Shown here piece by piece: positions 129-6,300 of a stretch of DNA of 64,000 nt (the first letter of the stretch is position 1; each line of letters begins with the position of its first letter). Source of the DNA: Prevotella sp. (GTDB lineage Bacteria; Bacteroidota; Bacteroidia; Bacteroidales; Bacteroidaceae); the NCBI GenBank assembly GCA_017471245.1, contig JAFUVB010000084.1, positions 1 to 64,000 on the forward strand, written 5' to 3'. The notes beneath the pieces were generated by a model. That model worked only from the letters and a program-made list of their open reading frames with translations, ran no database searches and was not told the DNA's origin. The position numbers and the translations under genes are program-made.

Positions 129-3100
129 TCAGTAGTATTTTATAATTACTTTTCGAGATGTATCGCCAATGCGGATGATATAGACTCCGCCAGGCAGCGA
201 GAGCTTCACGGAGTCCTCACCTGTGGCAACTCTTCTTCCGTCATAACTATAGATTGCCCAAGGTGTCCGTGTGTCTGTTACGATGTTGCTGATACCTGAA
301 GCAAACTCCATCTCGGGCTTTATATCCTTGACCTCGTTCCAGCCTACGTTATCAGTAGCAATGGCACAGAATGCATAATTTACCTTTGAATCATAGGGCA
401 TTGTATAGGTGTTCTCGTTTATGCCCGATGCCAGCAGTTCAGCGGATCCTCCGTCTTTGAACACATAGATGGTGTATGACGAGATGCCTGACGTGGCATC
501 ACTTCCCTCAATTGTCAGTACGAGTTTATCGTCATTCCGTTCCACATTGGCTATTTTCGATGTTGGATAGTCTGTATCGAATGTGTTCACGTAGGTGTTT
601 GTTTCGATAGGCTGGTTGGCATCAAATATGATCGTGGCTTTATTGCTGACCGTAGAGCCGCTGGCGGGATCAGCCTTGTGCTCTATAGAGAAGCTGACGA
701 AGCCTTCGCCGTCACCATTATCGTTGTTGGGCAACAGGTAGCCGAGATCCGGATCTTCGATGTGCTGTCCGTTTTTGTCGAGTGATACCATGCTCCAGCT
801 GGCTTCGCCCGTCTTTTCGTCAAACTTACCGCTGACGCGTACCAGGATGTCCGTCCCGTTGACGGTATAACTGATGTCACGCGTAAACTCCTTTATCTTT
901 GAGCCGCCTACGTTCCAGATTTTGTCAGCCCATCCGAAAGCAGTGAAGCTGAAGGTAGAAAGGTCATATTGAGATGCGTTAAGTTTGTCATTGATGAATA
1001 CCTCGTGTGCTGGAGCCGTAGCCTCAGGCTTGTTCTCGTAGGTGATGAGATAGCCCATGTCGCGGATAGGCCGGATATAATGAGCGTTGTCGTCGTAGCC
1101 GGCAGGACCTGTCATCTCGTTAGGGTCCTGAGACCATTTTATTTCTATAATACGGTGGTCCCTAATGCTGCCAAGACATCCGTCCCCATTCCAAATGTCT
1201 TGCATTACAGCATTGAAAACCGAATCGGCACCAAATGTTACAGTTCCGACACATGCTAATAAAGATGCGATCTTGTTAACCACCAGGTCAGACACATTAT
1301 TCTGGCTGTTATCTTTTGTTACTTCCAAGACTTTGTCAGACGCATAGATACAATCGACATCAATACTTATTTCTGTGTTTCTTGTCCATCCGAAGAAATA
1401 TTGTGCCAGGCACTCCGCAATACTATGATCCCATCGATCATGTACATTCAAATGTTCGTTCCAATCATCAGCGGTTTGTTCTCCTGACCCTTGTGATCCT
1501 ATTCTGCCTTGTTCATATGCTCCCACGGGAATACCACAGGAGTATACCATATGGATGGCTGGATCAGAAGGGGCTTGACCATTTACACGAATACGGAAGA
1601 TGTAATTCGCCTGACCATTCGGCGCAATATAGGGTATGTTAAGCACATAGCCTCGCATCGGACCATACTGGGGTGTATTGATGACAACGCCATTTTCTTG
1701 ATTCTTACAGTAATCTTTCACGGATTGAGGGATTGCATTTCCATAGTTGTCAACAGTGAAGTTGAATGAGGCATCAAGTTGCCCGTCTTTATCGCTGACA
1801 AAAAGAACGAAGGGTGTATTGTATGCTGCCACATTTGAATGGTTGGCAAAAGAAATAGAATAATTCTGAGCTCTTCCGAAGAGTATGTCGTTTCGCCCAA
1901 TGATTTCAACCGAAACATCCGGATAGCCATCACCGGCCTCCAGTTCAAAGGCATCTTTAAGGATCATGTCGCCAACGCAAACATCATATTTGCCCAGCTC
2001 GGCCGTTTGCAGATTAAATACTGCATCAGGGAAGTCGTCAAGGGACATAACATTCTTCATGTTGAAATTATTGTCAATATCCCATTTGCCAACGATATCA
2101 CCTTTGGCGTTGCGTAATGCTATATAGGTCTGATTCGAATAACTCAGATCATAAGAGCCAAGAATCTTTAGGCGGACAACATCTGAGGGAGCCGCTTTTT
2201 CAGGGAAAACTCTGATTAATTTGTATTCACCGTCTCCTGTTTCTTCGTTGCCTGTCATTTCAACGATGTTAGCGAACAGACTCCATCCTGTTGCCACCTC
2301 ATAGGCAGCCTTGCGGCCGACGGGTACGTGGAGCGTTATATTATTAATGGTAAATACAGAACCCTGTTCTGTCCAATCTTCCTGTACGGGGAATGTATGA
2401 TCACTAATAGCCTGTGGCGTAGTGGCCAGATTGTAGACATCTGTCAGATACTCACATCTTTCGAATGCTCCTTCGCCAATCTCTGTGACGCTGGCAGGAA
2501 TCGTGATGCTGGTGAGGGCTGCCCCCTCGAAAGCGAATCTGCCAATGGTCTTCAGGGTGTTTGGCAGGGCGATGGTGGTTGACTGCAAATCAGCAAATGC
2601 TTCACTGTAGATGACCTCAGTGCCTTCGGCAATGACAGCATTCTTTCTACCGCCGGGATTGTAGAGTAGTGTTTTCAGATCCTTGGTGTAGAGCACACCG
2701 TCAATATCGGCATAGACTTCATTGTCGGCATCCACTTTCACTTCTATCATCTCGTCGCATTCACCAAACACATCAGCGTAGAGTTCGTCTTCCTCAATCC
2801 ACTCCTTGTTGTCGCCCCACTCGAACCAGTAACTCTCGTTGCCCAGATACATCACGCTCTTGGGGATTCTGATGCTGGTCAGCAGGGTTCGTTCGAAGGC
2901 CTGTTCTCCGATGCGCACGAGCGATTCCGGCAGGGTTATCGAGGTTATTTTGGTGCGACTGAAAGCCTCTTCGTCAATCAACGTTACGTTGCCCTGTATC
3001 TCGGCATAGGTGATGCCTGAGCGATAGAACGCCTTTTTGCCGATCTTCGTAACGCCTGACGGTATCGTGACACCTGTGATTTCAACATTACGGAAGGCCT

Positions 3101-3365
3101 CTCTTCCGATTTCCACAACGGTGTAGCCGTCGAAAGATCCTGGTATCACGATGTTACCAGACGTGCTTTTGGCAACGGCCAGCATAGCGTCAGAGTCAAT
3201 TTCGCCGTCGGCGTTTCTCTTTTCAGGCGTTCCGACCATACAGGTGGACTCATCGATGGTGGTGTAGGTCCATTCGATTCCGTCCACGGTTGCTTTCTTT
3301 TCTGTCTGGGCAAAACCCGCTGCAGCACAAAGGATGGCTGCGCAGAGTGTAAAAAATCTCTTCAT
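129..3365 (-). CDS. BspA-like leucine-rich-repeat secreted protein with type IX-like C-terminus
   Basis: 1078 aa. Residues 1-19 form a signal peptide ending in GFAQ. From about residue 65 to 370 there are repeated LRR_5 (BspA/TpLRR) units with the pattern xxIGxxAFxxxxLTSITIPxSV, typical of surface adhesins of oral and gut Bacteroidetes. The middle (about 400-950) has beta-rich regions, including NKATIIFDANQPI, a motif common in Bacteroidetes surface proteins. The last 60 residues (IYSYDGRRV...GVYIIRIG...KVIIKYY) resemble a type A sorting domain of the type IX secretion system, so export to the cell surface is inferred. It is transcribed alone, away from the LRR/kinase operon, and a TAATTTTG -7 box lies about 90 bp upstream. 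Ligand unknown. Confidence 0.9.
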   Translation of the reverse strand: MKRFFTLCAAILCAAAGFAQTEKKATVDGIEWTYTTIDESTCMVGTPEKRNADGEIDSDAMLAVAKSTSGNIVIPGSFDGYTVVEIGREAFRNVEITGVTIPSGVTKIGKKAFYRSGITYAEIQGNVTLIDEEAFSRTKITSITLPESLVRIGEQAFERTLLTSIRIPKSVMYLGNESYWFEWGDNKEWIEEDELYADVFGECDEMIEVKVDADNEVYADIDGVLYTKDLKTLLYNPGGRKNAVIAEGTEVIYSEAFADLQSTTIALPNTLKTIGRFAFEGAALTSITIPASVTEIGEGAFERCEYLTDVYNLATTPQAISDHTFPVQEDWTEQGSVFTINNITLHVPVGRKAAYEVATGWSLFANIVEMTGNEETGDGEYKLIRVFPEKAAPSDVVRLKILGSYDLSYSNQTYIALRNAKGDIVGKWDIDNNFNMKNVMSLDDFPDAVFNLQTAELGKYDVCVGDMILKDAFELEAGDGYPDVSVEIIGRNDILFGRAQNYSISFANHSNVAAYNTPFVLFVSDKDGQLDASFNFTVDNYGNAIPQSVKDYCKNQENGVVINTPQYGPMRGYVLNIPYIAPNGQANYIFRIRVNGQAPSDPAIHMVYSCGIPVGAYEQGRIGSQGSGEQTADDWNEHLNVHDRWDHSIAECLAQYFFGWTRNTEISIDVDCIYASDKVLEVTKDNSQNNVSDLVVNKIASLLACVGTVTFGADSVFNAVMQDIWNGDGCLGSIRDHRIIEIKWSQDPNEMTGPAGYDDNAHYIRPIRDMGYLITYENKPEATAPAHEVFINDKLNASQYDLSTFSFTAFGWADKIWNVGGSKIKEFTRDISYTVNGTDILVRVSGKFDEKTGEASWSMVSLDKNGQHIEDPDLGYLLPNNDNGDGEGFVSFSIEHKADPASGSTVSNKATIIFDANQPIETNTYVNTFDTDYPTSKIANVERNDDKLVLTIEGSDATSGISSYTIYVFKDGGSAELLASGINENTYTMPYDSKVNYAFCAIATDNVGWNEVKDIKPEMEFASGISNIVTDTRTPWAIYSYDGRRVATGEDSVKLSLPGGVYIIRIGDTSRKVIIKYY

Positions 3366-3453: not shown

Positions 3454-3461
3454 CAAAATTA
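3454..3461 (-). promoter_or_regulatory. probable -7 box of the BspA-like gene
   Basis: TAATTTTG on the minus strand matches the Bacteroidetes -7 consensus TAnnTTTG and would give a leader of about 80 nt. No clear -33 TTTG is seen at the right distance. The box overlaps the last codons of the upstream LRR frame. Confidence 0.45.
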
Positions 3462-5078
3462 GTGAATTCCTATGAAAAGGTATTGGTCCAAATTGGTCCA
3501 TTTATCAGTTTGGTATATAAATGGACTCACATGCTGAATGGGAAGAGCCGGATACTCATGGATGCGATGAGCGAAGAGCGACCAGCCTTCAGCCTGACGA
3601 TATGCTTCGACGGAACCATAGGGAACATAGATTTCCGGCTCAGGAAACCCATGAAGACTTGAAGGGAAAAGGGTGGCCTGACCGTTCAGGGAATCATAGG
3701 CAGGTGGAACGGGCGACTCGCAATAGACTCGCTTAAACAGACAAGCGAGACTCCAGTGGCCGATGTGGGTGATCTGCGAGGGAAGTATCAGCTCATCTCG
3801 GTTGAACCAGTTGAAACACTCATCGCTGAGACTGGTTACGCTGCGGGGGATGAAGGCCGTGGTGCTGCCTGTGAGCATCCGGTTGGTACGAGTCTCAATG
3901 ATGGCGTTGCAGTGTTCTCGACTGTCATAGACAGGGTTATCGGGACTGACAATGACTTCAGACAAATGCCAGTCAGACCCGAAGGAGGTAGAGGCTATCC
4001 GTGTGGTTTTAGCAGGAATAAAGAGGGAGCGGATGTCGCAGGCGAGGAAGGCATTTTCTCCGATAGCTTGCAGGGTGCTGGGCAGACGGACGGATTGAAG
4101 GAGGGTGCAGCGTTCAAAGGCACTTGCCTCAATCTCGGTCAGCCCAGTGAAGTATTTCAGTTCGTCGAAATGGCGGATGGACGTATTTCCTGAGAAGACG
4201 GATCCAAGGGTGGTGACAGCGGCAGCCTCGTCGATGGACAACTCGTGATCGCCGTTCCTGTCCCATCGGCTGACGCAGATCTGCTTTACTTGAGTGTCAC
4301 GGAATGGAATGTTATGACAGACGAGGCGGGAAAGCCGCCGCCAACTCTGTTTTTCCTTCTCAGGAGTGAGCCAGTATTGTGGGGCAAAAATGGCTGTTAG
4401 CTTAGGACAATGCTCTAATGGGCGACTGCCGATATTGGTATTGGGAAGGACAGCCTCGAATATGACCGTTTCGAGTTCGGTGCAGTCTTCAAGCACATGG
4501 TCGCCGATGGCTGCCACACTGTTAGGAATAGTCACCATTTCTAAGGCTGTGCCTTGAAAAGCACTCTGGCGGATGTAGCGTACTGTTCGCGGGATTCGTA
4601 CAGACTCCAGACGGGAACAGCCGGAGAAGGCATTCTGGTTGATATCCGTTAGCCCCGTGAAATGCTCCAGCTCGTTGAAACTGCGAAGTAAGGTGTCGAG
4701 GGTGAAGACATTGCCGAGTGTCTTGACGGCTGCTGCTTCGCTGTAACTCAACTCGCCGTCGTTGTCAGTATCCCATTGTTGTATGCAGCATTGTTTGGCA
4801 TGCGGGTCATCGAACCCGATAATCTCGTGATTGAGGATTCTTATCTGCTGGTTCAGTTTGGCTGAATGCCTCTCCAAGTCTGTCGCCTTCTGGTTGACAC
4901 TGTAAATCTGCCATACCAGTGCGCCAATGACGAGGGTGACGAGGAGTATGGCTGTCCACCACCAGTGGAGCGTTTTGTGTGGTTGCAGGTCGGCCAGCAG
5001 CTCGTTCATATTCTGATAGCGCTGGTGTATAGGTTTAAGACATTGTCTTGTCACCTTATTATATTTACCCCCCCCCAA
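3459..5078 (-). CDS. membrane-anchored LRR ectodomain, out-of-frame continuation of the upstream kinase
   Basis: This 539-codon frame has no good start of its own; the only initiator is a TTG at the edge of a run of nine G. Its first about 35 residues (YNKVTRQCLKPIHQRYQNMNE) look like the last helix (subdomain XI) of a Ser/Thr kinase, so it was or is the 3' part of the kinase gene that ends at 5065. Next come a membrane segment (about residues 39-60), a short coiled stretch, and two units that begin with an EF-hand-like loop (DTDNDGELSYSE; DRNGDHELSIDE) followed by BspA-type LRR repeats. The expected topology is cytoplasmic kinase, one membrane span and an LRR domain outside. Removing one G (G8) joins the two frames into a protein of about 757 aa. 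A sequencing error, a switchable tract or a true disruption cannot be told apart here. Confidence 0.8.
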   Translation of the reverse strand: MGGGKYNKVTRQCLKPIHQRYQNMNELLADLQPHKTLHWWWTAILLVTLVIGALVWQIYSVNQKATDLERHSAKLNQQIRILNHEIIGFDDPHAKQCCIQQWDTDNDGELSYSEAAAVKTLGNVFTLDTLLRSFNELEHFTGLTDINQNAFSGCSRLESVRIPRTVRYIRQSAFQGTALEMVTIPNSVAAIGDHVLEDCTELETVIFEAVLPNTNIGSRPLEHCPKLTAIFAPQYWLTPEKEKQSWRRLSRLVCHNIPFRDTQVKQICVSRWDRNGDHELSIDEAAAVTTLGSVFSGNTSIRHFDELKYFTGLTEIEASAFERCTLLQSVRLPSTLQAIGENAFLACDIRSLFIPAKTTRIASTSFGSDWHLSEVIVSPDNPVYDSREHCNAIIETRTNRMLTGSTTAFIPRSVTSLSDECFNWFNRDELILPSQITHIGHWSLACLFKRVYCESPVPPAYDSLNGQATLFPSSLHGFPEPEIYVPYGSVEAYRQAEGWSLFAHRIHEYPALPIQHVSPFIYQTDKWTNLDQYLFIGIH

Positions 5079-5727
5079 GTTCCATCTCTTGGAAAATAAT
5101 CCCTAATGAGTATATGTCATTGCGCACATCGGGTATGGCTTGCTGTGCTTGTTCTGGCGACATGTATTTCAGGGTGCCGGCTGGTTGCTTGAGGATAGCG
5201 TGACTGTCGGTATCGGCCAGTCCGAAGTCGATGACCTTCAGGTAGTGTCCGTTGTGGGTCACCATGATGTTTGAGGGTTTCAGATCGCGGTGAACCACTT
5301 GCTGCGAGTGGATGTAGGCCAGCGCCTCTGCCAGTTCTGTGGCGATGTGTCGGCGTTCTGCGAGAGTGGGATGTGTTGTCAGGAAGTCATCGAGTGTGTC
5401 ACCGTCGATCCATTCTGTCACGATGCAGACGGCGGCATCCTCACGGTCGGGTAGCATCACAGGCTCAAAGTTCACCGCTTGCAGGATGGCGGGGTGCTGT
5501 AGGCGCATCAGTATCTCAAACTCCTTGCGCAGCATCTGCTGATAGACAGGTTCCGCGCAGAGTTCCGGTTTCAGGCATTTCAGCAGAAAGTAGCGCCCGT
5601 AGCGTTTGGCGCGGTATAGGCAGCAATGCCCCTTTGAAGGCATTGCGGAGATATCAGTAAAGGTGGTGCTGATACCCTCATAGTCGGTTGTGAGGTAGCC
5701 GGAGACACTTTTGCCTGAGGATGCCAT
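5065..5727 (-). CDS. Ser/Thr protein kinase catalytic domain, cut short at a poly-G tract
   Basis: 220 aa in this frame. Hanks-type landmarks are present: Lys50 in LLKCLKP, Glu69 in the C-helix, VHRDLKPSN at 145-153, DFGLAD at 167-172, GTLKYMSPEQ in the activation segment and DIYSLG at 204-209. The glycine loop is degenerate (SKGHCCLY). The frame ends ELGGG-stop within the nine-G run at 5068-5076; the missing last helix is encoded in the next frame (3459-5078). It starts 6 nt after the HTH-like gene and belongs to the lysS-gpsA operon. In this frame the product would be a soluble kinase lacking its C-terminal helix. It probably phosphorylates a cellular protein in response to whatever the linked LRR domain binds; the adjacent HTH protein is an obvious candidate target, but this is inference. 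Confidence 0.85.
   Translation of the reverse strand: MASSGKSVSGYLTTDYEGISTTFTDISAMPSKGHCCLYRAKRYGRYFLLKCLKPELCAEPVYQQMLRKEFEILMRLQHPAILQAVNFEPVMLPDREDAAVCIVTEWIDGDTLDDFLTTHPTLAERRHIATELAEALAYIHSQQVVHRDLKPSNIMVTHNGHYLKVIDFGLADTDSHAILKQPAGTLKYMSPEQAQQAIPDVRNDIYSLGIIFQEMELGGG
5068..5076 (-). repeat. nine-G homopolymer inside the kinase-LRR gene
   Basis: Nine C on the plus strand (G9 in the coding sense) at the junction of the two frames. G8 or G11 would give one continuous kinase-membrane-LRR protein; G9 gives a stop directly after the tract. Tracts of this length are prone to slippage and also to sequencing error. Confidence 0.95.
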
Positions 5728-5733
5728 TGGTCG

Positions 5734-6300
5734 TTATTGGGATTGGTTGATTTCAAATCGTACTCCTCCCTTTTTGCCACAGACATAGTTGGCTGGTGGG
5801 TTGTCGCCATGAAGCAGTCGGCTCAGGTAGAGAGGTTCTCCCTCGATGATGAGACCACACTGGAAATAGTCTCCTTTCAGCAGGCGTGTGTTTTGGGAAT
5901 CGATCACCCTGAACTGCAAGTTACCAAGATAGCGGACGTTGCACAGACGGTCTGGTTGCCACGACAGGGTTAGTTGGTCGTTCTCGATGAGATCTTCCAG
6001 CACGTTGATGTGACGGCTGATGACAGGACTGCTGACAATCACGTCGGGATTGGAGGCATGTTGGCAGAAGCTTTCATAGTCTGAATAACCGATAAAGCGG
6101 GCCAGTGTGTCGAGTGTTCTCTGACCAGGAATGTTGTCGTTAGGAAGATATTGCCAAACGCGTTTCAGGGTAGTAGGGCTGATGAGCAGCCTTAAGCGAG
6201 CGTATATCCTTTCGCGGAGCTCTTCAAAGTCCTTGGGTACGCGCATCTTGTGACCAATGGCAGCCTCTACAGCCTTGCATAAAAGTTCTGTGTTCTCCAT
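5734..6300 (-). CDS. HTH-like Bacteroidetes-specific protein, kinase partner
   Basis: 188 aa, no signal peptide or membrane span. Residues 1-80 are helical and carry the pattern RLLISPTTLKRVWQY...TLDTLARFIGYSDYESF, an N-terminal module I associate with Prevotella/Bacteroides proteins and which resembles a helix-turn-helix. Residues 100-188 look like a small beta domain of unknown function. The ATG overlaps the gpsA stop by one base (TAATG), so it is translationally coupled, and the kinase follows after 6 nt. A regulator or substrate of the kinase is the simplest reading. I know of no characterised homologue. Confidence 0.75.
   Translation of the reverse strand: MENTELLCKAVEAAIGHKMRVPKDFEELRERIYARLRLLISPTTLKRVWQYLPNDNIPGQRTLDTLARFIGYSDYESFCQHASNPDVIVSSPVISRHINVLEDLIENDQLTLSWQPDRLCNVRYLGNLQFRVIDSQNTRLLKGDYFQCGLIIEGEPLYLSRLLHGDNPPANYVCGKKGGVRFEINQSQ

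Follow-up and report, generated by a model that had tools for sequence, protein, structure and literature searches.

The phasome of Campylobacter comprises many coding G tracts, lying in surface-modifying genes and found in out-of-frame states. In Bordetella the phase-variation gene is bvgS, a single locus of a pathogen that belongs to a histidine-kinase system. In the parts of the literature drawn on here, poly-G contingency loci and a phasome are described for Campylobacter (PMC6321876, PMC8437040), phase variation by frameshift in a two-component system for Bordetella (PMC11868660), and a pilus switch operating by replication slippage at a G tract for Bifidobacterium breve (PMC9187656). The portions on Bacteroides describe phase variation by DNA inversion (PMC11868660, PMC3090145), with slippage suggested for one B. 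fragilis polysaccharide locus only (PMC3090145), and an excerpt on Akkermansia also describes inversion (PMC13343947). Background on errors and on classification comes from passages of PMC8808543 and PMC3711429.

Here we analyze a window (the whole stretch of 64,000 nucleotides) from a relative of Prevotella/Xylanibacter, in which a gene for a predicted membrane kinase is split at a run of nine G. Like the Campylobacter phasome, the window genome has many coding G tracts and out-of-frame states; unlike it, the host is a relative of Prevotella/Xylanibacter and one of the tracts lies inside a membrane kinase. An intragenic G tract as a putative ON/OFF switch in a gut commensal recalls the B. breve pilus system (PMC9187656), although there the pili are Gram-positive and slippage was measured, whereas for the window gene it is proposed. 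As in the Bordetella case (PMC11868660), frameshift variation would affect a signaling gene, here a candidate and there a histidine-kinase system. Reports of invertible DNA in Bacteroides (PMC11868660, PMC3090145) likewise concern capsule and SusC/SusD phase variation in Bacteroidales, but by inversion, while homopolymer slippage is proposed for the window. Among the matches listed from the open-licence literature, which leaves most subscription papers outside, none described phase variation at poly-G tracts in Prevotella, and none a receptor kinase with an LRR domain like that of the window.

A kinase gene split at a G9 tract

The features of the split gene are as follows.

5068..5076, minus strand: G9 tract, followed by TAAA (C9 on the plus strand; read directly from the sequence)
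5065..5727, minus strand: Ser/Thr (Hanks-type) kinase frame, 220 aa (open reading frame list, Pfam, PDB sequence match)
3459..5063, minus strand: continuation in the next frame, with the kinase end, one hydrophobic span and an LRR_5 domain
4896..4952, minus strand: approximate position of the predicted membrane span (19-residue window of highest mean hydropathy, 2.18)

The initial annotation placed the end of the 220-aa kinase frame (5727-5065) within the nine G; its stop codon is the TAA directly behind them, and on either side of the tract the kinase frame and the next frame are in different registers. The window gene is thus a real split gene, with a repeat tract inside the reading frame where any change of length that is not a multiple of three shifts the frame, as at a contingency locus. 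The frame arithmetic behind the statement that G8 or G11 would restore one protein of ~757 aa is correct.

The first piece contains a conserved kinase domain, but the Pkinase match (E = 1.5e-36, Pfam) reaches only position 191 of 263 in the profile, and the remainder lies in the next frame. The 220-aa frame carries the Lys, HRD and DFG motifs, and its best PDB sequence match is PknB. The second open frame (5078-3459, 539 aa; its start at 5078 is a mechanical TTG and unlikely to be a real gene start) begins with the end of the kinase domain, continues with one hydrophobic span and a weak DivIC/FtsL-like stretch, and carries LRR_5 repeats (E = 1.9e-37) that score 128 bits against a curated cut-off of 27.7, as in BspA-type LRR proteins. 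Its PDB sequence matches are solved leucine-rich repeat and cell-surface proteins. This order agrees with the earlier description of a kinase end, a span and BspA-type repeats in the next frame, except that more than the last helix is missing from the truncated kinase: the absent part presumably comprises everything after helix F, that is, subdomains X-XI. Of the EF-hand repeats described there, two EF-hand-like segments are seen, one a weak Pfam match below the cut-off and the other recognized by eye. It is also doubtful that the protein is a surface receptor. Because the kinase precedes a single span, the LRR domain of a Gram-negative bacterium would face the periplasm and not the cell surface.

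Against the PknB/PASTA receptor kinase family the kinase scored 133 bits with a cut-off of 450 (truncated piece only), and in the second piece Pfam gave no PASTA match, with LRR_5 in that place instead. As to an anti-phage role, the PADLOC matches (PD-T4-6, MAD6) cover the kinase domain only, NCBIfam MAD6 scored 81 bits against a cut-off of 460, and neither the gene upstream nor the LRR piece had anti-phage matches in PADLOC. Promoter-like sites (6 vs. 3.1, sd 1.8, in shuffles) and terminator-like sites (2 vs. 2.7) were uninformative.

Orthologs are encoded in single frames

In X. ruminicola D31d, the nearest named relative found, the gene is a single frame of 773 aa, or 745 aa from the likely start, and identity to it is 64% for the kinase piece of the window gene and 62% for the second piece. 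A further 18 loci in 17 other genomes have an open frame of 758–831 aa. At a threshold of 1e-40, 108 of 398 genus genomes had a match, many of these confined to the kinase or to LRR parts. The comparison of related loci that the initial annotation had proposed thus returned single frames in D31d and at 18 loci, and at the 20 other junctions that were inspected (L021, L083–L100 and L115) no run of G exceeds five.

Five of these junctions (L095, L096, L098, L099 and L100) encode LGGGK (Leu-Gly-Gly-Gly-Lys) in mixed glycine codons, while D31d lacks these residues. The protein motif is therefore shared and, among the junctions inspected, the long G spelling is found only in the window genome; on this sequence comparison, the tract arose in the window lineage on a pre-existing Gly-Gly-Gly-Lys motif. 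The idea that G8TAAA had been inserted as a 12-nt stretch by comparison with D31d was rejected, since other orthologs have LGGGK in mixed codons. Two orthologs are damaged in other ways: that of genome G397 (L113:1150-1450) is frameshifted inside the LRR part, at a break without a long homopolymer, and genome G180 retains a kinase remnant only.

Relative to D31d, pN is 0.20 for the kinase and 0.25 for the second piece (pS 0.78 and 0.83, saturated), and the 213 + 531 aligned codons contain no further stop or frame break. Because pN is low and the frame is otherwise clean, the break is recent or reversible. For other tract lengths in close relatives, neither a contig scan (13 pattern matches, one locus confirmed) nor the overlapping sets of 398 and 397 genus genomes gave any genome close enough.

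G runs across the genome

A single run of G8 or longer in the 64-kb window is unremarkable, with 0.71 G8 matches expected in shuffles and 0.63 G8+ runs under a first-order model. We therefore counted G runs in the whole assembly, which has 115 exact G6, 13 exact G7 and 27 runs of G8–G10 (15 G8, 10 G9 and 2 G10). Extrapolating the decay from G6 to G7 gives 1.7 expected G8+ runs, or 5.6 with a generous ratio of 0.3, whereas the first-order model scaled from the window gives 592 exact G6, 130 exact G7 and 37 G8+. The G8+ total, 27 observed against 37 modeled, is therefore not in excess of that model. G6 and G7 are depleted five- to tenfold relative to it and G8+ runs are not, so that the long runs exceed the G6-to-G7 decay but not the first-order total.

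By open-frame assignment, 21 of the 27 long runs lie on the sense strand of a reading frame; the other six (L003, L008, L010, L011, L013 and L015) are antisense, intergenic or lack such an assignment. GGG makes up 12% of glycine codons in open frames of at least 300 aa. Gene assignments and frame states were made from open frames, by eye and after the data had been seen, and the p values given for frame states are therefore descriptive only. The exact G7 runs are in an open through-frame in 9 of 13 cases and intergenic in three, with L121 ambiguous and none clearly out of frame.

The long runs also share a context: TA follows 19 of 27, compared with 39 of 567 G4–G5 runs in the same-genome sequence examined (Fisher 4e-15). 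Across 150 genus genomes including the window genome, GGGGGGGGTAAA is found 170 times against 44 for its reversed control; it is present in 64 of the 150, and 159 occurrences against 44 are left when the window genome is removed. A TAA behind the run would immediately end one of the shifted frames; TAT would not.

Genes carrying the tracts

The tracts are not placed at random among genes. Two groups stand out.

L001:989, L002:1871, L004:2000, L005:2037, L006:2061, L018:2033, L019:2013: tracts of G8–G9 in putative signal peptides (by eye) of secreted or SusC-type proteins
Contig C107, 6000-24400 and 26700-39600 (L016, L017): polysaccharide cluster with eight G8–G10 tracts, five or six out of frame

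Nine of the 21 coding tracts lie at codons 8–19 from an ATG. Seven of these are the signal-peptide tracts above, L018 being a SusC-type protein by Pfam, and the other two belong to a tandem gene pair at L007, of which one, the first, is a GT2 glycosyltransferase and the second was assigned by its similar sequence. SusC-type genes at L012 and L014 (Pfam) also carry tracts; L002, L004, L006, L009 and L019 had no Pfam match at 0.01. The cluster on C107 spans ~30 kb and holds 8 of all 27 tracts, where the first-order model predicts 0.5 in the 31 kb examined. Its families include hexapeptide acetyltransferases, TupA-like and sugar-transfer ATP-grasp, MBOAT and Acyl_transf_3, with a weak GNAT match, and it is a likely phase-variable capsule or exopolysaccharide locus.

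Thirteen of the 21 coding tracts are in frame, including 11 of 13 coding G8 tracts. The eight out-of-frame tracts are those of the window gene and L019 and six on C107; among the six, L016:3514 is doubtful because it is possibly near a natural gene end. The out-of-frame rate is 6/8 on C107 vs. 2/13 elsewhere (p = 0.018), or 5/7 vs. 2/13 without L016:3514 (p = 0.022). The comparison of G8+ with G7 (8/21 vs. 0/9, p = 0.067; 7/20 without L016:3514, p = 0.066) is suggestive only.

Surface, secreted and polysaccharide genes, the usual carriers of contingency tracts, thus predominate genome-wide, and the kinase itself is a non-surface gene. Guilt by association is weaker for the kinase because its tract is mid-gene, outside both the signal peptides and the polysaccharide cluster. 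The tract set is consistent with a poly-G contingency repertoire of which the kinase is probably one member, caught in an OFF length, and G-run slippage may turn genes ON or OFF in this bacterium.

Proposed mechanism and alternatives

We consider it fairly probable that the gene encodes an inner-membrane LRR kinase with a G-run slippage switch, one of ~21 coding contingency-like tracts, and that G9 is its OFF state. The gene product would be a Ser/Thr kinase anchored in the inner membrane, with a BspA-type LRR domain in the periplasm as its sensor. The Gly-Gly-Gly-Lys stretch of the gene, respelled as a long G run, would be prone to replication slippage. In the G9 state translation would end directly behind the tract, yielding a kinase without subdomains X-XI, membrane anchor or sensor; with these parts missing, signaling would be OFF and the kinase probably inactive. 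A change in tract length would turn the gene back ON in some cells, which would then make the membrane kinase with its LRR sensor. The earlier proposal of a switchable gene is therefore supported in part: the split gene and its single-frame orthologs are confirmed, the genome-wide poly-G set in secreted, SusC-type and polysaccharide genes makes slippage switching plausible, and we regard the kinase gene as probably switchable. A phase-variable sensor kinase would tie poly-G switching to signaling.

A base-call or assembly error in the homopolymer, with the real gene one open frame in all cells, is an unlikely explanation. Homopolymers are error-prone, the assembly is a draft of 114 contigs, and orthologs are encoded in single frames. 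Yet most of the coding G8 tracts that this assembly contains are in frame, and error should not favor polysaccharide genes, as the out-of-frame states do (p about 0.02). Spurious Illumina indels, according to a passage in PMC8808543, arise especially above 14 bp. Error at the kinase tract is made less likely by this genome-wide pattern.

It is quite unlikely that the gene is a pseudogene produced by a single slippage event, the run being an accident rather than a selected switch. A Gly-rich stretch can gain a G run by chance, the tract is missing at the 20 other junctions, the total of long runs matches the first-order model, and the broken G397 ortholog and the G180 remnant indicate that the gene can be lost. 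Set against this, the long tracts exceed the G6–G7 decay and are clustered in typical contingency genes, and the gene is otherwise free of stops and frame breaks.

Programmed frameshifting or transcriptional slippage, yielding short kinase and full protein from one genotype, is highly improbable: RNA polymerase and ribosomes can slip on long runs of G, but none of the 20 other junctions keeps the run or splits the frame there, so that the site is not conserved among them, and the 161 nt surrounding the tract show no unusually stable RNA structure (z = -0.64).

Tracts in other genomes

G8TAAA was examined at 29 loci of other genomes (a 30th, L066, is the window genome itself), and a downstream open frame of at least 100 codons was found only at L055, L058, L071, L075 and L080. 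With 5 of 29, the coding-sense pattern of the window genome is therefore not general to the genus. D31d has only eight such tracts, two of them in acyltransferase-type genes; one of these two genes is out of frame, with a Pfam score under the cut-off. In another species, genome G148, 20 stretches drawn from among the matches listed of 112 overlapping matches contain 26 tracts, many without a long open frame on the G strand. Its tract genes include Acyl_transf_3 (one out of frame), Caps_synth, Polysacc_synt and glycosyltransferase genes, as well as a TonB-plug (SusC-type) gene that is out of frame and a Reg_prop/Y_Y_Y/HisKA sensor kinase with an in-frame G8TAAA tract (L148:659-4000). The same genome has a G17 run adjoining a 228-codon open frame (L153:2005).

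We tentatively suggest, with less confidence than for the window gene, that some Prevotella/Xylanibacter-like Bacteroidales have a genome-wide poly-G slippage phasome, in a G8–G10-TA context, that switches polysaccharide, SusC-type and secreted proteins together with envelope sensors. Such a repertoire in related genomes would give Bacteroidales a second, easily counted switching mechanism. If envelope sensors such as the LRR kinase and the Reg_prop histidine kinase of G148 are indeed switched, cells would vary stochastically in what they sense.

Neighboring genes

Two genes flank the split kinase gene on the same strand.

5734..6300, minus strand: upstream partner, 188 aa, no family match; a relative lies near most orthologs
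129..3365, minus strand: downstream gene, 1078 aa, putative signal peptide (by eye), LRR_5 and DUF7619 (Pfam)

Searches of Pfam, NCBIfam and PADLOC, at the thresholds applied, matched no family to the upstream partner, and an attempt to read the function of the kinase gene from it was abandoned for lack of a family match. Of 21 distinct ortholog loci, 16 have a relative in the examined stretch (14 upstream, 2 downstream; the other five had no match), which makes the upstream gene a candidate output or regulator. The downstream 1078-aa gene is a possible partner of the kinase. By eye, the N-terminal half of the upstream protein is HTH-like.
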